From Planctomycetota bacterium (GTDB taxonomy: Bacteria > Planctomycetota > Phycisphaerae > WQYP01), in NCBI GenBank assembly GCA_021851715.1, contig JAJZCR010000009.1:1-64000 (forward strand): 64,000 nucleotides of DNA, read 5' to 3'. A program made the translations under genes and the position numbers. Under the pieces are notes generated by a model. The model ran no database searches. It worked only from the letters and a program-made list of their open reading frames with translations, and was not told where the DNA came from. Shown piece by piece: positions 40,517-51,478 of this stretch. Position 1 is the stretch's first letter, and every line of letters begins with the position of its first letter.

Positions 40517-40986
40517 AGCCGCGGCCGGCGGGTAAAAAAAGAGTCCCGCGGCGCTCAAAACCAGCCAATGCGCCCTCCGGGATCTGTGGGCCAAATCAGG
40601 CCGGGGTGGATTCAACACCGGTCGTCGGGGTCTGCGGGTCCGGGAACCCTGATGGGGTGGTACGCAGGCTGTGAATCCCGTAGCCGGGCACGGGCCTGAT
40701 GGAAGAAGTGAAGGTGTTGGCCTTTCGGCGCAGGGCATGTTGACGCTCCCCCACCACCGGCGAATGTAAGCAGGGGATGGATATCTCTTATGATGGGCAA
40801 TGGGTGCCACACCTTGGTGGTCGAACCCGCAGGCCTTCACGGTTGCAGCCAGAACTCCGCAAGCCATGCCTTGGCATGGCCCGACCGGGGAGGGTATATT
40901 TGACTGGGTTCAGCCCCCGTCTGGGGCTGGTTGGACGGAAGGCTGTGAACGGTCAAGAACTGTCGGACCTGCAGGAGTCGCGAGCC
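40517..40986 (+). other. Divergent intergenic region with a promoter and hairpins
   Basis: No gene was found in this 470-bp gap; reading frames through it are extensions of the flanking genes. It holds the palindromic promoter at 40863-40900 and a CAGCCCC/GGGGCTG hairpin (40911-40929), which would form the leader of the gene at 40987. Confidence 0.5.
40863..40900 (+). promoter_or_regulatory. Promoter with palindrome across the -35 box
   Basis: TTGGCA (40871-40876) and TATATT (40895-40900), 18-bp spacer, form a plausible promoter for the gene at 40987. The perfect palindrome GCCATGCC-TT-GGCATGGC (40863-40880) covers the -35 box and could be an operator. Confidence 0.4.
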
Positions 40987-42240
40987 ATGAATATATTGCC
41001 ATTTTCGCGTGCCGGCCGTTTGATAATCGCTGATTTTGTCAGGTACGGGAGCGTCGCCATTTTGGCCTCTTCCGGCTGGGCGACGGCTCGGGCGGCATCA
41101 CCACCAGTTGTGCCGCGACCGGGAGCGAACGCGGCTTTATATTACTATCAAGCCCTTGAGATGCTGCCACGGATACCCGTGCGTACCATCAACGGATCTA
41201 TTCCCCGCATAAGCGACTATCCGCTTGACAATACCACACTTCGCCAACTTCAAGCCGCCAAATGGTCCCTGCGGCTGCTGCGCCTCGGCAGCCGTGTGCC
41301 CGTATGCAACTGGGGGGATAAACCTATTTACGGCCAATTTACTTTCGTACCACCTTTGTTCGTTTTAGGCCAAGCACGCGGGCTTGGTGAGATTGCCTTG
41401 CTCCAGGCGCGGCGGGATTGGGGCCAAAAGCGTTGGAAAAGAGCCAACAGACTGGTGGCGGTGGCCTTTGGCCTGGCCCACGATGTCGGCCAGGGGCACA
41501 TGCTGCTGGGCATATTCACAGAGGGAGTCATGAACGATATTTACATTGGCACGCTGGCTAAAAATATTGCCTTGCTGCCAAAGGCGGAATTGCGGGCGCT
41601 CCAACCGTTGCTTGATAACTTGCCACCGCTCACGCCCATGGCGGCGGCTCTGTGGCCAGGTGGACCCGAGCCTCTACGTGTTGTCATGCGGCAACTTCTC
41701 AAGAGTCATCGCGAAACGTCCATCTGGCAGTGGGTAGCGACAACGGGCAAGCCGGGAAAATATGTGCAAGGCCGATGGCGCTTTGCGCCTGTACCGCCGG
41801 TTCCTGCGCACTTTGCCACGCAAGTTCGGGCCGCCATTTCCGCCATGCAGCGGCACGATAAGGAATTGGCGGTGGCGATGGCCACCCCTTATCCACGGGG
41901 CCTCTTGGCCGTGAAAAAGGCGTGCCGCCACATCAAAATTCAGGATAGTGCCAGTGGTAATCCGGTGTTACGTGTGCTGGCAATACCATGGTGGGAGCCA
42001 TCCTATTATGCAGCCCAATGCGGTACAGAGGCCCATCGCATGGAACTGCGAGCCGCCATTGCGTACTTGCTTGGCGGCAGGGCGGCGTTTGATAAAATCC
42101 GCGATCCTTTCGGGCCTGGGCCGCTGATACTGGAAAAACACGCGAACCAACTGGTAATTCGTTCCCACCTGAATGTATCGCCTCTGGTCGCGTCGGCGAC
42201 AGCAAAAATGGAGGCCTCGCTGACCGTGCCGCTGCATTGA
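40987..42240 (+). CDS. Secreted protein of unknown family, paralogue 1
   Basis: The ATG at 40987 has AGGAG ~9 nt upstream, giving 417 residues; the frame extends to 40777 but without family support. A signal peptide (GSVAILASSGWATARAAS) precedes a mature domain that opens NAALYYYQALEMLP. It ends with RAAIAYLLGGRAAFDKIRDP, then FGPGPLILEKHANQLVIRS. The same opening and ending occur in the next gene, so the two are tandem duplicates. No known family or catalytic motif was recognised. The protein is mainly helical with W/Y-rich stretches. Confidence 0.8.
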   Translation: MNILPFSRAGRLIIADFVRYGSVAILASSGWATARAASPPVVPRPGANAALYYYQALEMLPRIPVRTINGSIPRISDYPLDNTTLRQLQAAKWSLRLLRLGSRVPVCNWGDKPIYGQFTFVPPLFVLGQARGLGEIALLQARRDWGQKRWKRANRLVAVAFGLAHDVGQGHMLLGIFTEGVMNDIYIGTLAKNIALLPKAELRALQPLLDNLPPLTPMAAALWPGGPEPLRVVMRQLLKSHRETSIWQWVATTGKPGKYVQGRWRFAPVPPVPAHFATQVRAAISAMQRHDKELAVAMATPYPRGLLAVKKACRHIKIQDSASGNPVLRVLAIPWWEPSYYAAQCGTEAHRMELRAAIAYLLGGRAAFDKIRDPFGPGPLILEKHANQLVIRSHLNVSPLVASATAKMEASLTVPLH

Positions 42241-42365
42241 GACTGGGGAAGTGATAACAGCGGCCACGGCCAGTCGTCGGCCTTCGTCCGCCACCTTTTA
42301 GGCCCCGTGGGTGAATGGGTGCGTGTGCTGTGCGAAGGGCATGGGAAAATAAAGGATACATCCGC

Positions 42366-43598
42366 ATGAAAAGCTGTGTGACTTATCTACTGGGCGTAGT
42401 GCTTGTATTCAAGGGTGCCGCACTGGGTGCTAACGCTTCGCTGCCAGCCCAAGCGTCGCTCTCTGAGAATGCCGCATTGTATTATTATCAGGCCTTTGCA
42501 GCGAATTCTGGAGCTGCAGACATAGAGACCCGCTCCGCTTACGAGCCGACGTATGCGATATGGAATCTCCCGATTAATAAGCAGATTATCCGGGATCTCC
42601 AGGCCAGCCAGCAGGCATTTGTGCTGCTGCACTTCGCGGGCAAAATGCCCTATTGCCAATGGGGAGATGCGGCAGCCGATCGCCGTTGGGGTACGGCAAC
42701 GCCGACTACGGCGGAACAGCGGTCCCGGGAGCTTATGGACGTGGCCGTGCTGGAAGTGCGGCTGGAGTGGCGCAAAAGACACTGGAACAAAGCGTCGCAA
42801 ATAATCAACGACATGCTAATTCTTGCCCATCGTATCGGTCAGGAAAAAGAAATTGTCGGCCCATTGGTCTCTTGGAGCATGGACAACATTATTTTTGAGG
42901 CAATTGCCGCCCACATTGGAGCTTTGCCGGACGCCGGTCTACGCCCCCTGCAAATGGTCTTGGGCAAAATGCCGCGGTTTGAAAATCCGGCTGCGGCATT
43001 GCGGGGCAGTTCACAGATGGCCCATTCATTTATGCGGCAAGCCCTCCGCGAAAAGAACCAAACCATGATCCACCAAATATGGCAACAAACGTGGAAAGCT
43101 CAATTCTACAAAGATCCCGCTTGGCAAACCAAAGTTCCGCCCGCTGCGCCCATGCCCGTTGGGTTTCCTGCCGAACTGCGGGCTGCTATTCCAGTGTTGG
43201 AAAGGCGAGACAGGTCTATCGCCGTAGCGTGTGGAGAACCTTACCCGCAGGTCATCAACAGCCTGAAAGCTCTCAACCAACGGGCTGTGAGGTGGCAAAC
43301 GCGGGGAAGCTTCATGCTGCGGGAGTATGCACAGTCCAAGCCCGGATGGATCTGGATTATACATGCCCAAGCCGTGGTCGGTCGGGCGAACTGCCGGGCC
43401 GCGATTGCATATCGGCTTGGCGGCAGATCGGCATTTGATAAAATCCGCGATCCCTTCGGCCCTGGGCCGCTGATTCTGGAAAAGCAAGCCAATCAACTGG
43501 TGATTCGTTCACGCCTCGACATTGCCGCGCTGGTCACTGCAAAAGAGTCCCGACAGATCACATCAATGAGGGTGCCGCTTGCGCCCCGCCCGCGATAA
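42366..43598 (+). CDS. Secreted protein of unknown family, paralogue 2
   Basis: The ATG at 42366 gives 410 residues, starting with a signal peptide (VTYLLGVVLVFKGAALGANA). It aligns with the preceding protein over its full length: NAALYYYQAFAANSG at the mature N-terminus, MPYCQWGDAAADRRWG against VPVCNWGDKPIYGQFT in the middle, and RAAIAYRLGGRSAFDKIRDP plus FGPGPLILEKQANQLVIRS near the end. The central parts are much less alike, so the duplication is old. Upstream there is no copy of the palindrome found before paralogue 1. The function is unknown. Confidence 0.8.
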   Translation: MKSCVTYLLGVVLVFKGAALGANASLPAQASLSENAALYYYQAFAANSGAADIETRSAYEPTYAIWNLPINKQIIRDLQASQQAFVLLHFAGKMPYCQWGDAAADRRWGTATPTTAEQRSRELMDVAVLEVRLEWRKRHWNKASQIINDMLILAHRIGQEKEIVGPLVSWSMDNIIFEAIAAHIGALPDAGLRPLQMVLGKMPRFENPAAALRGSSQMAHSFMRQALREKNQTMIHQIWQQTWKAQFYKDPAWQTKVPPAAPMPVGFPAELRAAIPVLERRDRSIAVACGEPYPQVINSLKALNQRAVRWQTRGSFMLREYAQSKPGWIWIIHAQAVVGRANCRAAIAYRLGGRSAFDKIRDPFGPGPLILEKQANQLVIRSRLDIAALVTAKESRQITSMRVPLAPRPR

Positions 43599-43864: not shown

Positions 43865-45727
43865 GTGAGGACATTGGCGATCTCAGCCCCCCTTAAATTC
43901 GGGGATCATAAATTGTGGGGCACCGGCCACGAGGTAAAGTTGCACCCGCCGCATAAAAAGTCGGGTGCAATTTTGCAGCGATACGGTACCATAGCGTTGG
44001 TGTCGCCAAGACTAGGAGTCCTGATGCTTGCCGCTGAAGATCCTTTAATTGTCCAGGGAGACTTAACTGTGCTGGTGGAAGTGTACAGCCCGCGCTACGC
44101 GGCGGCACGAGATGCGTTGGCGCGGTTTGCGGAACTGGTCAAATCACCGGAGCATATTCACACTTACCGGATCACGCCGCTGTCCGTGTGGAATGCGTGT
44201 GCCGCAGGCTGCACGCCGGAGTGGATCATTGAATCGCTGGAGGTTTATGCCAAATATCGGCTGCCGGATCATGTGCGGGTGCAGGTCCAGGATCTGGCTG
44301 GTCGCTACGGAAAGTTACGCCTCATTCGCCATGAGTCGGATATGCTTTTGTCCGTCGCCGATGCCATCCTTGCGGAGGAAATATCGCGGCAGGACCAGGT
44401 AAAACCGCATCTGTCCCGGCGTCTTTCGCCCACCACTTTTGTTGTGCCATTATCCGCCCGCGGGCAGATCAAACAAGCCCTGGTCAAGATTGGTTATCCG
44501 GCGGAAGACCTGGCGGGTTATGTCGGCGGAGAAAAACTGGCGATCGGCTTGCGAACACCGGAAAGTCTGGGCGGGAAGCCCTTTGGATTGAGGCATTATC
44601 AGCGTGATGCCGCTGAGGTTTTTTATGCCGGTGGCAGCGACCGCGGTGGATCCGGAGTGATTGTGTTACCCTGCGGTGCCGGCAAGACCATCGTGGGCAT
44701 GGCGACAATGGCTCAATTGCAATGTTCCACGATGATTTTGACCTCCAGTGTGACGGCGGTGCGACAATGGATATCGGAGTTGCTCGACAAAACCACCCTC
44801 ATGCCGGATCAAATTGGGGAATATACGGGCCAAAATAAGGAAATTCGTCCGGTAACAGTGGTAACCTACCAGGTGCTTACACATCGGAAAAGTAAAACCG
44901 GTGAATTTCCACATATGGGCGTTTTCGACGGCCGCAACTGGGGGCTGATCATTTACGATGAAGTTCATTTACTGCCCGCACCCATTTTTCAGATTACCGC
45001 GGATTTACAGGCCCGCAGACGTCTGGGCCTTACGGCCACTCTGGTGCGGGAAGATGGTCGGGAAGACGAGGTATTTGCTTTGATCGGCCCGAAAAAGGCG
45101 GATGTGCCCTGGAAGGACCTGGAGCACCAAGGTTGGATTGCCACAGCCATATGCACCGAGGTTCGCTTGGAAATGCCGGAATCGGTACGGATGACGTACG
45201 CCCTGACGGACCACCGCAACAAGTTTCGGGTAGCGGCGGAAAATCCGGATAAATTCGCCCTGGTGCTGGAGATTCTCAAACGTCATTCCGGCGAGCCGGC
45301 GCTGGTGATAGGCACGTATGTGGAGCAGATTGAAGCTCTGGCGAAGTTGATTGGTGCACCGGTACTTACGGGGGCGACGCCGCAACGACGGCGTGATCAG
45401 GCCTACGCGGATTTTAAGGCCGGTAAGGTGGGGGTGCTGGCGGTTTCCAAGGTGGCTAATTTCGCATTGGATTTGCCCGAGGCGGCGGTGGCGATTCAAA
45501 TATCGGGAACTTTTGGCTCCCGGCAGGAGGAAGCGCAGCGCTTGGGGCGTATTTTACGGCCTAAATCTGGAGCCAATCAGGCGCATTTTTATTCGCTGGT
45601 CTCCCAGGATACTCTGGAGCAGGACTTTGCCATGAAGCGACAGTTATTTTTATGTGAACAGGGCTATGAGTACCGAATTGTGCATGCGGCGGAATGGGCG
45701 GATCGGGAAACAATGTCCGCTGCTTGA
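43865..45727 (+). CDS. XPB/Ssl2-type DNA helicase
   Basis: The 620-residue SF2 helicase resembles the XPB subunit of TFIIH and its bacterial homologues. An N-terminal XPB-type accessory domain lies at ~55-155 (PLIVQGDLTVLV, ITPLSVWNACAAGCTPEWII). The motor follows: GLRHYQRDAAEVF, Walker A LPCGAGKTIVG (~268-278), DEVH (365-368), the RED motif (395-397 in LVREDGRED), and motif VI QEEAQRLGRILRPK. It would unwind or translocate DNA, perhaps in nucleotide excision repair. The start is either the GTG at 43865 or the TTG at 43874, the latter with GGAGG better placed. Confidence 0.93.
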   Translation: MRTLAISAPLKFGDHKLWGTGHEVKLHPPHKKSGAILQRYGTIALVSPRLGVLMLAAEDPLIVQGDLTVLVEVYSPRYAAARDALARFAELVKSPEHIHTYRITPLSVWNACAAGCTPEWIIESLEVYAKYRLPDHVRVQVQDLAGRYGKLRLIRHESDMLLSVADAILAEEISRQDQVKPHLSRRLSPTTFVVPLSARGQIKQALVKIGYPAEDLAGYVGGEKLAIGLRTPESLGGKPFGLRHYQRDAAEVFYAGGSDRGGSGVIVLPCGAGKTIVGMATMAQLQCSTMILTSSVTAVRQWISELLDKTTLMPDQIGEYTGQNKEIRPVTVVTYQVLTHRKSKTGEFPHMGVFDGRNWGLIIYDEVHLLPAPIFQITADLQARRRLGLTATLVREDGREDEVFALIGPKKADVPWKDLEHQGWIATAICTEVRLEMPESVRMTYALTDHRNKFRVAAENPDKFALVLEILKRHSGEPALVIGTYVEQIEALAKLIGAPVLTGATPQRRRDQAYADFKAGKVGVLAVSKVANFALDLPEAAVAIQISGTFGSRQEEAQRLGRILRPKSGANQAHFYSLVSQDTLEQDFAMKRQLFLCEQGYEYRIVHAAEWADRETMSAA

Positions 45728-45750
45728 GGCTATGATGAGGGATTGGCGAC

Positions 45751-47862
45751 ATGGTGTGGTTTAGGACTGGTGAGCACAATTTTGGCAGGCAGGCCATAGG
45801 CTCGACCTGTGGCGGCATGCCGGTACACAAAATGTTTGTTTTGCTGGGGAAGATGATGCCAGCGTGGCAACAGACCCCCCCTGGCACGCGTGAGACCTTG
45901 CTCGAACGTCTGACGTATCCGGCCAGCGTGATTCCACGCGGTACGGTACCGGGGGTCGACGCGCTCGTAGCCGGCAAGTGGCTGGATGCCGACTGGAAGA
46001 AATCGGAAATTCGGCGAGGCAAGGCCTGTGGGCCGGTCTGGGAGATTTTGAGGGTCATGGAGAGATCTGATAGCTTTTCGGGCGACGCGGACCTTAGCCT
46101 CCTGTTAGCCGGAATCTTTACCTTCGAGCAGCGCGACCAACTGGCTATAAAGGGGATGAACAATCAGTTGCATCAACGTGTTGAGTTGAGCGTGCGCTCC
46201 CGTGGCTGGGTGGGTGGTTTTCTCGCTGCGCCGGACAAAGCCACCTGGATGAAACAAATGCATCTTCAAGGCCCGTTACATTCTCCCCTGGAAGAGCAGG
46301 CTGTTTTTGGCATGGTGCAGAAACTGGTTAAAACCTGCTTGGAACAGGGTCATCCACTCCAGGTGGAGCAAGCGGCCAACAGCACGGATTTTGGCGGACG
46401 CGAGACGTTTTATGGGTTGCTGGGACTGGCGGTGGAGCATCTGTTGCTGATTCCGTTTCTGGACCCCGAAACCCGGGACTTGCTGGTGATGATTGAACCA
46501 ACAGCGCACCGGTCGTTGCGACGCCCGCCGGTCGTGCGGCCCGTGCCGGTGGGGGCCATGGCGGAGACCTTCCGTTGGCCATGGATTGTGGAAGATCTCG
46601 TGGTGGTGTTGACCCAGGCCGCCTTCAAACCGCTGCGGATGAAAACAGATGGAGGTCTTTATACCCAAGATATCGCCGATGTGGCATCCGCCATCATGCC
46701 GTTGCCGGAATGGTTGGTAAATGCAGAGTCGCACCGCGCCGATAGCCTGGCGTATATGCCCTCCAGCCTTTCGCGCGCGGACTTTGCCGTGGGGCTGGCC
46801 TTGGGCTCGCAATTCATGGGCCATGACCGCGATGGCTCATGGCGGGAGCTTAAGCCAACGGTCGAGGGCCAGACATTCCTGAGCCTCTCCCCGCACCAGC
46901 GGGTGCGGCAACTCTCCGATGCGATGATTGCCAGCCAGACCAAAGAGCCTTTCGCTCCAGCCCGTCCGTTCAGGAATCCTTTTGGTGGATTGCAACTGCC
47001 AAAGGCACAAAAATCGCGGTTGAGCGACTTGCGACCGCTTGTCGCCCAAGCGGTGGCTCAATATCCGGCCGAAAGCTACATCCCCACGGAGCAGTTCCTC
47101 TGGTACCACGCGGCGAAAGATAATCCGTACATTGCCGAAGCTGGGAATAAGAGCACGTGGAATACGCTATGTTATAATTTTGGCGAGATTGGCACGCCGG
47201 CATCGCAACCGGAACGGTGGGAATACCTATGGATTTCTGGCTTGGCTGTAGCCCTATTCCATCATGTTGCTGGAATGGGCGGGGTGACATTTGGACACGA
47301 CCGCGACGCCAAGGCGCCGGTTTATTTTCAGGTTAATGCGATTGGGCGTTACCTGCTGGGGTTGACCGAGGGGTTGGTCTATGACCAGGCGCAGACCGTT
47401 CCGGAAAAGCCGTTGCTGGTGCAGCCGAATTTCGAGGTAGTATTTGTGTCCGCATCGCCGGCGGCGCACGTGTTATGCGGACAGTTTTGTGAGCGCAACG
47501 GAAAGGGGGCGGTGGGTAACCTGCTGAAAATAACGAAAAAGTCGATTGTCCGCGCCGCCAGCGCCGGCTGGACGGTCGAACGCGTGGTGGAAACCCTCGC
47601 CAATGCCTCCAGCAAGCCATTGCCCGCCAACGTCCTGCATGAAATTCGTGGATGGTTTGGCGGAGTACGCCGGGTACAGGCGCATCATTGTGTGTTGGTT
47701 ACGTGTCCGGATGTGGCCACGGCCGACCGTGTGGTCTCACTTTATGGGCACACAGAACCGCGACCGAGAATTTTATCCGGTCATCTGGTGGAACTTTCCG
47801 GACTGTTAAGTATCGCTGAAATCACCAATAAGCTGCACAAGGCTGGAATTTTTGTCTCGTAA
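45751..47862 (+). CDS. XPB partner protein with Helicase_C_3 (XPB-type) domain
   Basis: The 703-residue protein has no helicase motor motifs. Its C-terminal part (from ~residue 548) reads PLLVQPNFEVVFVSASP, then LLKITKKSIVRAASAGWTVE, then RVVETLANASSKPLPANVL. This is the same domain pattern as the N-terminus of the helicase encoded 23 bp upstream (PLIVQGDLTVLV, ITPLSVWNACAAGCTPEW). The pattern is that of the XPB/Ssl2 accessory domain (PF13625). A comparable protein lies beside XPB in mycobacteria (Rv0862c next to Rv0861c, from memory). The rest is helical and unassigned. It is likely a dedicated partner of the helicase. Confidence 0.8.
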   Translation: MVWFRTGEHNFGRQAIGSTCGGMPVHKMFVLLGKMMPAWQQTPPGTRETLLERLTYPASVIPRGTVPGVDALVAGKWLDADWKKSEIRRGKACGPVWEILRVMERSDSFSGDADLSLLLAGIFTFEQRDQLAIKGMNNQLHQRVELSVRSRGWVGGFLAAPDKATWMKQMHLQGPLHSPLEEQAVFGMVQKLVKTCLEQGHPLQVEQAANSTDFGGRETFYGLLGLAVEHLLLIPFLDPETRDLLVMIEPTAHRSLRRPPVVRPVPVGAMAETFRWPWIVEDLVVVLTQAAFKPLRMKTDGGLYTQDIADVASAIMPLPEWLVNAESHRADSLAYMPSSLSRADFAVGLALGSQFMGHDRDGSWRELKPTVEGQTFLSLSPHQRVRQLSDAMIASQTKEPFAPARPFRNPFGGLQLPKAQKSRLSDLRPLVAQAVAQYPAESYIPTEQFLWYHAAKDNPYIAEAGNKSTWNTLCYNFGEIGTPASQPERWEYLWISGLAVALFHHVAGMGGVTFGHDRDAKAPVYFQVNAIGRYLLGLTEGLVYDQAQTVPEKPLLVQPNFEVVFVSASPAAHVLCGQFCERNGKGAVGNLLKITKKSIVRAASAGWTVERVVETLANASSKPLPANVLHEIRGWFGGVRRVQAHHCVLVTCPDVATADRVVSLYGHTEPRPRILSGHLVELSGLLSIAEITNKLHKAGIFVS

Positions 47863-47932: not shown

Positions 47933-49957
47933 TTACGCCGCAGCCGATGGCACTGTGCCAGTTGTCCGATAGGCTTTTTGCTGGCGGATCGCCGCTATGG
48001 CGTCGGCATAAAGGGCACCCTGCTGTTGTTTGATGAGGGTTCGCACATCGTAGGCACCCAGAGAGTAGTTAGCTCCAATGGTGTTAAACAGTCGCAGCTC
48101 AGATGGCGTCAGTGGACCGTTGGATAGGGCAGCCCGAATGAGGGATCCCAGCCACAGCCGCACTTCTTCACCGGATGCCGGCTCGCGTGTCTGCAACTGG
48201 CCGCTTTGGGCCGCTTCCAGCAAGCGCTGCAGTTGTTCCTGGGGGACATTTTGACGCCGGGCAACTTGAGCCAGCATTTCCCGCTCATCGGGGTCCAGCG
48301 CACCGCCACTGGTGGTGGTCTTAACCGCCCAGGCAACCAGCCCGGCAATTTGCGGCGGAGGACGCTGCGGTAGATTGGCTGTTACCATGGCCTGGTCCCG
48401 CATAAAAGGATCCGTCAGGTCGGCCATGGAGGGGATCTTGTCCAATTGCGCAAGGAGCACCTGTGCCGGGTCGCTGGACATGGGTAAAATATCCGTGAGT
48501 ACCCAACCGTTGGAACCGTCATTAAGTACAGCGCCGCAAAAGGAGCATGTGCTGGAGGTATCATCGGATTCCGGTGCACCGCAACTTGGACAATGCGCTG
48601 CGGAAATGGTGGAGGCGATGGAGGTTTGGACTCCACTGGCCCGCTGCAACACAAATAAATAAAGAGCCACATTGCCTTGCATCATGCGCAGAATCTTGCC
48701 GCCCCCGGCATCCTCATAGAGCCGGGCGGAAGCGTGGACCTCCACCAGCATGCGGTCCAAGGGTGGCCCGGGAATCACCCCCAGTGCTTCCACCGCGCCC
48801 ACCGCGCAGTCGCCCCAAAACGTGCGATTGCGGTTCGGTTCCAGCGGGGGGTGCAGCAATTTTTCGTAGGCGTTGCAGAATTCGGGGCTGGCGTTTTTTC
48901 GCAGCGGATCCACCTTTCCAAGGCGATCGGCCAGAGTTTTGCGCCAAAACATGACGGAGGCGCGATCTTCAATATCTGGAAGGTTAAAATTAGGATCGGT
49001 TTGCTGAAGCTGGTTCACACCGGGGAGATTTCGCGGGTATTCCGGCTGCCATTGGGATTCCTGGGCGATATCCACCAGTACCCAGTCATATTGGCCGCTG
49101 CGTAGAATGGCCTTGCAATTGAGGCAGCGTGCTTCGGCGTTGAGTTCAATGGGCGCACCGCAGTTGGGGCAGAGGCCTTCAATGAGTCCGTCCTTGTTCA
49201 TGGTTTTCGTGCCCCGCCGGCGCAAAAAGGTCCAATACTCTGCAAAAGTGGTGTTGCTGAAGCCGCCGGAAATCACCGAGCCATCCGTGAGCGAAACGTG
49301 CTGATCCAAGGCGTTGGCATCAATGCGAACCGTGGCGGAATCAAACACGTTGTCACTGGTCAGATGCATCAAGGCGATGTGATCCAGATTCACGCGTTCC
49401 ATGCGATCGCGGTAACCTTCAGCCTTCTGCTGCGCAAATTGAATCTGAAAGCGTTCATGTACGCCGTCAGAAATGAACGCCCGGACGGTGGCCACGTTTT
49501 GGGTGCTCCAGGCATCCTGAATTTTAAGAAACGCGGTACCGACACGTTTGTAGAACAGATCTGGAGAAAATGCCGGATCGCGCTGCTTCAGGGCATTGAG
49601 CGCGGCTATCTCCGCATTGCCGTCAATGGCTTCGAGCCCATTTTGTGTGCGCTGGGTTCGCACGTAACCGGCCACACTGCGATGGGTGAAATAGTAAAAG
49701 ATACCACAGCAGATCAGCAGGGGAATACCGATTTCAGGCTCTTGTACCACCAGGTAAACCAGCAGGTACATCAAGGCCCCGCCACCGCCGCCGCCTCCCC
49801 CTCCACCTCCACCACCTCCTCCACTGAAACCCTCACCGCCGCCGGCCCGGCCAAACGCGGGATGCGCGGCCGCCAAAGCGCTAAGCACGGCAAGCACGGG
49901 GCCGCCCGCCAGGGCTAGACGTGTCCAGAATCTGCTTAGTTCAGGAAGCTTAGGCAT
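47933..49957 (-). CDS. TIM44-like, double zinc-ribbon, TerB-like membrane protein
   Basis: The 674-residue protein has a signal or anchor (residues ~12-36), a run of ~15 Gly (46-60) and a membrane helix (62-90). A TIM44-like domain follows (~130-250, FYKRVGTAFLKIQDAWSTQN, VRAFISDGVHERFQIQFAQQ). There are two zinc ribbons, at 263-281 (CPNCGAPIELNAEARCLNC) and 456-474 (CPSCG, CSFCG). The C-terminal part (~530-665) resembles TerB-type helical bundles (GGALDPDEREMLAQVARRQN, GPLTPSELRLFNTIG). Its function is unknown. TATAAT ends 6 nt before the ATG, suggesting a leaderless mRNA. Confidence 0.8.
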   Translation of the reverse strand: MPKLPELSRFWTRLALAGGPVLAVLSALAAAHPAFGRAGGGEGFSGGGGGGGGGGGGGGGALMYLLVYLVVQEPEIGIPLLICCGIFYYFTHRSVAGYVRTQRTQNGLEAIDGNAEIAALNALKQRDPAFSPDLFYKRVGTAFLKIQDAWSTQNVATVRAFISDGVHERFQIQFAQQKAEGYRDRMERVNLDHIALMHLTSDNVFDSATVRIDANALDQHVSLTDGSVISGGFSNTTFAEYWTFLRRRGTKTMNKDGLIEGLCPNCGAPIELNAEARCLNCKAILRSGQYDWVLVDIAQESQWQPEYPRNLPGVNQLQQTDPNFNLPDIEDRASVMFWRKTLADRLGKVDPLRKNASPEFCNAYEKLLHPPLEPNRNRTFWGDCAVGAVEALGVIPGPPLDRMLVEVHASARLYEDAGGGKILRMMQGNVALYLFVLQRASGVQTSIASTISAAHCPSCGAPESDDTSSTCSFCGAVLNDGSNGWVLTDILPMSSDPAQVLLAQLDKIPSMADLTDPFMRDQAMVTANLPQRPPPQIAGLVAWAVKTTTSGGALDPDEREMLAQVARRQNVPQEQLQRLLEAAQSGQLQTREPASGEEVRLWLGSLIRAALSNGPLTPSELRLFNTIGANYSLGAYDVRTLIKQQQGALYADAIAAIRQQKAYRTTGTVPSAAA

Positions 49958-49963
49958 GTTGAA

Positions 49964-49969
49964 ATTATA
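49964..49969 (-). promoter_or_regulatory. -10 box directly before the TIM44-like gene
   Basis: Minus-strand TATAAT (49969-49964) is followed by 6 nt and the ATG at 49957. A -35-like TTTTCA (49992-49987) lies 17 bp upstream, inside the CTGGT/ACCAG dyad at 49981-49996. Confidence 0.55.
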
Positions 49970-50007
49970 ATCGGTGAAAGCTGGTCTGAAAACCAGTCTG
50001 GCCGCCG

Positions 50008-50424
50008 TTACGGTCCGTTGGTGGAAAGGTTGAAGTTAATGACCGTCGTGGGAGGCAATTTTTTCATGTCTGTAATCAACATGCGGTCCTGTGTCCAGTT
50101 GACTTTATAAGTGAACGCAATTTTATCGCCCACGGCCAGATCTGCGACAGAAACGGTTTTGGCCAGTTGGCAGGGCATGGTCATGGCCTCCATGGGCGTG
50201 ACCTTGCCGTTGATACCTATCCAATTGGGAACCGCCTGCATCTTAATCATTATGCTGGGTGGTCCCTGCATGGGGACGGGCAAGGATCTGATAATTCCCT
50301 TGAGGTGGTAAACATAAGTGAAGCCCTGCTTGATGGAACTGCTGGAGTTTTTGGATTTGCAGCCGGCGATTGGCAGGCACAGCGAGCAGATTAGTACAGT
50401 GATGAACAGCAGATGGCGGGGCAT
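50008..50424 (-). CDS. CusF-like copper-binding lipoprotein
   Basis: The ATG at 50424 with GGAGAA upstream gives 138 residues; the longer frame overlaps the protease gene and is rejected. The lipobox CLPIAGC is followed by a small OB-like domain similar to CusF: YHLKGIIRSL, then PMEAMTMPCQLA, then DLAVGDKIAFTYKVNW. The metal-binding MTM is kept. The CusF histidine (ITIHH) and tryptophan next to MTM appear replaced (IMIKM, MEAMTM). It may bind Cu(I) differently or not at all. It lies 43 bp after a site-2 protease gene on the same strand. Confidence 0.78.
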   Translation of the reverse strand: MPRHLLFITVLICSLCLPIAGCKSKNSSSSIKQGFTYVYHLKGIIRSLPVPMQGPPSIMIKMQAVPNWIGINGKVTPMEAMTMPCQLAKTVSVADLAVGDKIAFTYKVNWTQDRMLITDMKKLPPTTVINFNLSTNGP

Positions 50425-50467
50425 GGCGTTCTCCCAGCTTTGTGGTGCAGGCCCGGTGGCTGATATT

Positions 50468-51478
50468 TCAGCGGTCAGTTTGGCCGCCGGGGGGGGCGAC
50501 GGCGACGGTTTGTACACTGCGGACATAATCCACTCCGAGCCATGCGGCGATGGCGTTGGGGGTGCGGCACTTCGGGCAGGTAATGGATGCGGCCAGATAG
50601 TTTTGGCCGCAGTGGGGGCAAACCCCGTGGTCGGCGAAGAGATCAAATTTCTGCCCGCATTTGCCGCATTGGAAAAATTCCCCGACCGGCGGCTCCAAGT
50701 TGCAGGATGGGCAATGAGCATGGGTGTGGGTGCCAATGGGAACGTCGGAAGGGTGAATTTTGCCATGGTGTTCCATTCGCAGCCGCGCTCCGAGTTGAAA
50801 TCCCTGCCAGGCGTTCATGATTAAGAATACGTCCATTGCCAGAAGGTAAAGCGTTGCGTATTGGTAAAGGCCGAGGCTGCGTGTGAAAAAGGCCATCCAA
50901 GTCAGGATTATAATCGCCGCCATTCCAAGCCCCGCCGCAACTTGCAGTGCCAGCCCGTCGCCAACGACAAACCACAGCAAAGACCACAGGATTTTTCCGC
51001 CATCGAGCGGATAAATCGGCAAGATATTAAACACCAGCAGAATAAGATTGATCACGTACATCTGATGGATGAATACCGCGATATTGGCGGAAACTGGAAG
51101 CAGGCCGGTGACTGTAGCGTGTTGCAACAGGAGCAAAATGGGCCATAAAACCACATTGACCAGCGGTCCGGCCACCACGGTCCAAAGCATGGCTGGAGCC
51201 TTCCACGGCGGTTGGCCGAAGGCAATACCGCCAAAGGGCCAGAGGATGATGGTATTGGCGGTGCCGCCGACGGAGCGGCAGGCCAATTGATGACCGAATT
51301 CATGGGTCAGCACTATGGCAAAGAGGCCCAAAATAACAAAGAGGTTCCATATTGGGCTGGTGAACTGGCCCCAGGGAGATTGGTAATCGATGTAAACGAT
51401 AATCAGCCAGCTCCAATGCACGAACACGTCGATGCCGAACAGGCGAAATATCCGCAGGGCTCCATTGCGAAGAAACAT
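50468..51478 (-). CDS. Site-2 protease family (M50) membrane metalloprotease with zinc ribbons
   Basis: The 336-residue protein has ~6 membrane helices. Metal ligands are visible: H59-E60-x2-H63 in LTHEFGHQ, and an Asp in NILPIYPLDGGK. The C-terminal third (from ~240) is cytoplasmic and carries ribbon-type pairs: CPSCNLEPPVGEFFQCGKCG, CPHCGQNY and CPKCRTPNA. It would cleave membrane proteins within the bilayer, often in stress signalling. No anti-sigma factor or PDZ domain is seen, so the substrate is unknown. It is upstream of the CusF-like lipoprotein gene on the same strand. Confidence 0.92.
   Translation of the reverse strand: MFLRNGALRIFRLFGIDVFVHWSWLIIVYIDYQSPWGQFTSPIWNLFVILGLFAIVLTHEFGHQLACRSVGGTANTIILWPFGGIAFGQPPWKAPAMLWTVVAGPLVNVVLWPILLLLQHATVTGLLPVSANIAVFIHQMYVINLILLVFNILPIYPLDGGKILWSLLWFVVGDGLALQVAAGLGMAAIIILTWMAFFTRSLGLYQYATLYLLAMDVFLIMNAWQGFQLGARLRMEHHGKIHPSDVPIGTHTHAHCPSCNLEPPVGEFFQCGKCGQKFDLFADHGVCPHCGQNYLAASITCPKCRTPNAIAAWLGVDYVRSVQTVAVAPPGGQTDR

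Follow-up and report, generated by a model that had tools for sequence, protein, structure and literature searches.

A two-gene XPB module in Planctomycetota whose motorless partner probably is a distant relative of the TFIIH subunit p52

We analysed a 64,000-nucleotide stretch of DNA, hereafter the window, from a Planctomycetota bacterium of the class Phycisphaerae (assembly GCA_021851715.1, contig JAJZCR010000009.1, positions 1 to 64,000), and in it two consecutive genes, one for an XPB-type helicase and one for a protein that we call the partner (Table 1). Both lie on the + strand, separated by 23 bp. The upstream open reading frame (ORF) scores 838.8 bits against NF045503 (repair_heli_XPB, a full-length equivalog with a cut-off of 610), is also matched by TIGR00603, PF16203 and PF04851 (ERCC3_RAD25_C at E 6e-46), and carries the complete motif set of Walker A, DEVH, RED and motif VI in addition to an N-terminal PF13625 domain. 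XPB gives one set of hits in this genome. Since the XPB model starts at residue 60 and the ORFs of relatives in the genus are 578-599 amino acids (aa) long, the true start may lie inside the ORF as annotated. A scan for promoters and terminators returned the same counts as shuffled sequence.

Table 1. Features of the XPB-partner module, with positions in the window.
Feature	Position	Strand	Residues	Remarks
XPB/ERCC3/RAD25-type superfamily 2 (SF2) helicase	43865..45727	+		620-aa ORF, GTG start
XPB N-terminal domain (Helicase_C_3, PF13625)	44045..44425	+	XPB 61-187	motor's half of the duplicated domain
Walker A, GAGKT	44675..44689	+	XPB 271-275	G271, G273, K274, T275 invariant in 28 XPBs
DEVH box	44957..44968	+	XPB 365-368	alignment of 28 XPBs
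RED motif (XPB-specific, DNA-opening)	45047..45055	+	XPB 395-397	alignment of 28 XPBs
Helicase motif VI, QEEAQR	45524..45541	+	XPB 554-559	alignment of 28 XPBs
Partner, p52/Tfb2-like, motorless	45751..47862	+		703-aa ORF, ATG start
Winged-helix unit	46312..46500	+	partner ~188-250	AlphaFold2 models mapped via alignment
Winged-helix unit	46567..46860	+	partner ~273-370	AlphaFold2 models mapped via alignment
Winged-helix unit adjoining clutch	47005..47346	+	partner ~419-532	AlphaFold2 models mapped via alignment
Clutch (p52 MD2-like)	47410..47670	+	partner 554-640	homologous to XPB N-terminal domain
C-terminal beta-alpha-beta-beta-alpha unit	47686..47850	+	partner 646-700	secondary structure of both models

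An initial annotation, made from the sequence alone, had proposed that the N-terminal domain of the helicase recurs at the C-terminus of the next protein and that this second protein has no motor. Our analysis bears out both statements. In BLASTP, XPB and partner share 27% identity across 116 aa (E 7e-7), and residues 569-662 of the partner are recognised by PF13625 (35.2 bits, cut-off 34.2). We also built a profile of the Planctomycetota partners. In each XPB listed it picks up the N-terminal domain, at E 3e-22 in the XPB of the window, and always with its own C-terminal segment (model ~490-710). The BLASTP and profile matches thus indicate genuine homology. The genome contains just two PF13625 domains, one in XPB and one in the partner, and a domain scan of the partner returned neither a helicase motif nor a nuclease domain. 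Within the shared domain, the position of human XPB T119, a residue mutated in trichothiodystrophy, holds T in 21 of 28 XPBs and in 30 of 50 partners. The residues E562, G606, L616, P625, N627 and W635 are near-invariant in the partners; E562, which lies on a strand of the domain and is E in 47 of the 50, would be a good candidate for an interface residue.

What does this domain do in better known proteins? In human TFIIH, p52 recruits XPB by means of its clutch, a homologue of the XPB N-terminal domain, and the two domains dimerise pseudo-symmetrically (PMC6422496). The subunit p52 is made up of an N-terminal domain, MD1, MD2 (the clutch) and a p8-binding C-terminal domain; together, p52 and p8 activate the XPB ATPase and also limit its speed (PMC7708078). 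When searched against the PDB, our partner-family profile finds human XPB N-terminal domains (E 1e-10) and then, through the clutch, Tfb2/p52 (E 4e-4).

The first ~540 residues of the partner, which the initial annotation had left unassigned, indeed have no assignment in sequence libraries, but structure prediction gives winged helices. The AlphaFold model of the window's partner has a pLDDT of 70.5, with residues 1-180 poorly modelled; that of a partner central to the family (L089) reaches a pLDDT of 89.8 and a pTM of 0.81, and shows about four winged-helix units, then the clutch, then a beta-alpha-beta-beta-alpha tail. Judging from the models, this tail would be equivalent to the p8-binding C-terminal domain of p52, at whose place it sits. 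A further C-terminal domain of the WYL type, common in regulators, is present in 5 of 30 diverse partners (e.g. L201:2709-5291).

The predicted overall domain order, with the winged helices first and the homologue of the XPB N-terminal domain after them, is the same as that of p52, and comparison of structures leads to the same protein. In Foldseek searches of the PDB, p52/Tfb2 chains take the first 23 places for the window's model (best E 1.4e-8, 618 columns aligned) and the first 20 for the L089 model (best E 1.3e-11), where XPB N-terminal domains follow at 3e-5 and unrelated proteins at 0.02 or worse. Moreover, Pfam Tfb2 gives weak matches in 8 of the 30 diverse partners (best 9.5e-6) and in 7 of 50 Planctomycetota partners (best 6e-4), while in a sequence control it matches none of 28 XPBs, despite their far higher PF13625 scores. 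Among the proteins of the PDB, p52/Tfb2 (GTF2H4), which works with XPB/Ssl2, is the best structural match. It has a clutch like the partner, and the winged helices and small alpha/beta C-terminal unit predicted for the partner may correspond to those of p52; each of the two proteins accompanies an XPB possessing an N-terminal domain. They differ in length, p52 having ~460 aa and the partner family 650-750 aa, and in setting, the Planctomycetota partner being linked to UvrA and p52 to a TFIIH. The analysis gave no evidence for the other TFIIH components p34, p44, p62 and CAK, at which no search was aimed. We conclude, going beyond the initial annotation, that the partner resembles p52 of TFIIH and is probably a distant prokaryotic p52/Tfb2 relative, that is, a p52-like partner of XPB.

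Several results weigh against this conclusion. The window's partner has no match to Pfam Tfb2 (PF03849) or TIGR00625 at E <= 1. TM-scores against p52 do not exceed 0.46 by target, low values of the kind seen with a flexible multidomain protein; in Foldseek, the isolated N-terminal half of p52 (6tru) is matched only at E 0.13; and a profile restricted to the winged helices finds no p52 in the PDB, only eS19, a protein of winged-helix fold, at E 0.3. No Tfb5/p8 appeared in 9 genomes searched, yet the control was likewise silent. Because the partner falls below the Pfam cut-off, has low TM-scores and matches the N-terminal half weakly, we use the term p52-like and do not assign it to Tfb2.

The same results could be read to mean that the partner is p52-like in function and homologous to p52 in the clutch only, a duplicated XPB N-terminal domain having been fused to an unrelated winged-helix array, with the rest convergent. 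Such a history would account for the failure of the winged-helix profile to find p52, for the faint match of the N-terminal half, and for the fact that the Pfam Tfb2 matches lie mostly within the clutch. However, p52 is found at 1e-11 and XPB chains at 3e-5, across 500+ columns, and matches that beat those to XPB over such a length imply that the winged helices contribute to them. A clutch-only homology also fits poorly with the occurrence of Tfb2 matches among partners and in none of the XPBs, and with one Asgard partner that aligns to Tfb2 positions 242-356, extending upstream of the clutch. We therefore place convergence on the unlikely side, and prefer common descent with p52.

If the two proteins form a dedicated pair, they should travel together. 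Among 294 genomes, taken to be Planctomycetota on the strength of named loci such as L203 and L166 with full-length matches to the partner family, PF13625 occurs in 142, with at least two copies in 130 of these, and XPB above cut-off occurs in 132, so that the domain is nearly restricted to XPB-bearing genomes. In nine of the 12 single-copy genomes the family profile reveals a partner, in three cases as fragments on contigs lacking XPB; we had considered XPB-only genomes as a contradiction of the pairing and dropped this idea, since most single-copy genomes turn out to have the partner. The family profile finds none in G040, G049 and G141, of which only G040 is a complete genome; with an XPB (locus L071) and no detectable partner in the same class as our bacterium, G040 does speak against strict pairing. 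Across 61 loci that were fetched, the partner lies directly downstream of XPB in the same direction in 45, with a 4-bp overlap in 19 and within 50 bp in 31. Within the genus, the ratio of nonsynonymous to synonymous substitution rates (dN/dS) of XPB is 0.08-0.12 and that of the partner 0.24-0.27, indicating that both genes are maintained and that the partner evolves faster. In short, the Planctomycetota partner does not occur mostly without XPB, and the shared domain aligns by profile and by predicted structure; the dedicated two-part module outside eukaryotes that the initial annotation had suggested is therefore well supported, by co-occurrence as well as by domain alignment.

The pair extends well beyond this phylum. 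A scan of the collection with an XPB alignment yielded 80 loci, from archaea and a wide range of bacterial phyla. In 42 of them, among which are Actinobacteria, Firmicutes, Chloroflexota, Thorarchaeota and a Methanosarcinaceae metagenome-assembled genome, the partner family is found inside the locus. A second PF13625 protein lies elsewhere in 23 of 33 further genomes, and about ten genomes, several of them Fibrobacter, have XPB alone. Two partner paralogues accompany one XPB, in tandem or flanking it, in the Chloroflexota loci L129, L131, L141 and L147; two paralogues also accompany one XPB in L119 (5884-7836 and 9506-11248). In Hydrogenedentota, an ORF of ~1,040 aa starts within a few bases after XPB (L130:7665-10808) and encodes an AddB-like PD-(D/E)XK nuclease; L137 and L140 have an ORF of similar size in this place, that of L130 being the one scanned among the three.

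Within its family the window's genus is the only one with the module, and its XPB clusters with those of a mixed group that includes Myxococcota. From this distribution and grouping, horizontal transfer of the XPB-partner pair appears likely. A module that is patchy and moves between lineages could also be a phage-defence helicase pair, and PADLOC does match the XPB motor weakly with PbeA and DinG; but these matches concern the generic helicase core only, the partner has none, and no defence genes adjoin the module in the relatives examined, where the recurrent neighbours are UvrA and housekeeping genes. A role in defence thus seems to us extremely improbable. A comparison with viral contigs gave no match.

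The UvrA neighbour offers a clue to a pathway. In 22 Planctomycetota loci from more than a dozen families, XPB is immediately preceded, on the same strand, by a gene for a fused double form of the DNA-damage sensor UvrA (full copies ~1,900-2,000 aa); L084:283-7748, L091, L095, L097, L111 and L112 are examples. In several of the 22 loci the two genes share a 4-bp overlap. By guilt by association in these relatives, the link points to nucleotide excision repair. Two facts tell against extending it to our module: UvrA is not adjacent to XPB in the window's genome, which encodes an ordinary 952-aa UvrA elsewhere, or in its genus, and none of the 80 loci of the collection-wide scan has a UvrA neighbour. 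For these reasons we treat the UvrA link as an association in relatives. The repair link of the initial annotation is thus supported only by gene neighbourhood in related genomes, not by this genome itself, and on the strength of the UvrA operon of relatives we rate the chances of a repair role for the pair as roughly even.

The initial annotation had left room for a link to transcription instead, and the pair might act in promoter opening or in the displacement of stalled RNA polymerase. XPB within TFIIH opens promoters, and ercc3 mutants of M. tuberculosis are hypersusceptible to rifampicin (PMC10534295), which could reflect transcription. However, no gene for RNA polymerase or a sigma factor is a conserved direct neighbour of XPB, the place in which UvrA recurs, and the one recurrent sigma-factor gene lies several genes downstream. 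We consider a role in transcription unlikely. Could the partner instead bind DNA to regulate the operon or the SOS response, and form no complex with XPB? Its winged helices, and the WYL domain of some partners, including actinobacterial ones, would suit a regulator. Yet a regulator would need neither a domain homologous to the N-terminal one of XPB nor four-base translational coupling downstream of its target, and an alignment of upstream regions within the genus revealed no conserved operator-like element 5' of XPB. We judge this very unlikely.

The surroundings of the module in the window contain two further gene groups. At 40777-43598 (+), two adjacent ORFs without a Pfam match have near-identical C-terminal segments (DKIRDPFGPGPLILEK...) and constitute an uncharacterised paralogous pair. 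At 47933-51478 (-), convergent with the module, are genes for a Tim44-like zinc-ribbon protein and for an M50-type peptidase with a zinc ribbon; the Tim44-like gene stays beside the module across the genus.

How might XPB and a p52-like partner work together? We think it likely that the two correspond, in prokaryotes, to XPB and p52 of TFIIH. Because of the homology with a solved complex, we propose that the clutch of the partner would pair with the XPB N-terminal domain as a pseudo-symmetric unit, as in human TFIIH, and that the docked partner would position the two RecA domains of XPB. By analogy with p52, docking would also both activate the ATPase and cap it, and the winged helices would hold DNA, UvrA or another protein. 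Because of the UvrA operon we further suggest, more cautiously, that XPB might open DNA near a lesion handed over by UvrA, adding a step to bacterial nucleotide excision repair.

Besides TFIIH, three known systems come closest to the pair. One is the actinobacterial 'helicase-associated domain' protein of the Rv0862c type, beside Rv0861c/ercc3. The Planctomycetota profile aligns with the Streptomyces partner from end to end (E 1.6e-36, model 4-673); the actinobacterial partner differs in being encoded upstream of XPB and, in some cases, in carrying a WYL domain. In archaea, the 'TFIIH-like' family fam18955 lies beside genes for replication factor C (RFC) and has been read as RAD25-like (PMC9258230), and not as a p52-like partner of XPB. 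Since the Thorarchaeota partners of our scan (L139:8123-11141 and L155:10164-13162), which are distant homologues of the RAD25 (XPB) N-terminal domain, are divergent from an RFC gene, this common neighbourhood suggests that fam18955 is probably the Asgard branch of the partner family. The archaeal XPB-Bax1 system likewise provides XPB with a dedicated genomic partner, but Bax1, a nuclease, binds the thumb and HD2 (PMC13024598), whereas the window's partner has a second version of the XPB N-terminal domain and, by domain scan, nothing of a nuclease. Bacteria have been described as having no known TFIIH subunits besides XPB and XPD homologues (PMC3353954), and archaea as being without a TFIIH-like assembly (PMC13024598). 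In a literature search of incomplete coverage, which leaves priority uncertain, we found no paper that names the bacterial or actinobacterial partner p52-like or reports an operon of UvrA, XPB and partner.

More generally, bacteria may possess a core piece of TFIIH in the form of a two-part module. Tentatively, and as a possibility to which we give somewhat less than even weight, the XPB-p52 pair predates eukaryotes: a two-subunit 'proto-TFIIH' would have existed in bacteria and in archaea, including Asgard, TFIIH would have been assembled around the pair later, and Planctomycetota would have a hybrid excision-repair machine, with a double UvrA, XPB and a p52-like protein in one operon. A p52-like partner makes the origin of TFIIH testable, and the module offers a two-protein system for studying the XPB clutch without the other TFIIH subunits. 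The role of bacterial and archaeal XPB has stayed unclear. With a widespread p52-like partner, the XPB of bacteria gains a plausible complex and a plausible regulator, and the UvrA operon of Planctomycetota adds a plausible pathway.

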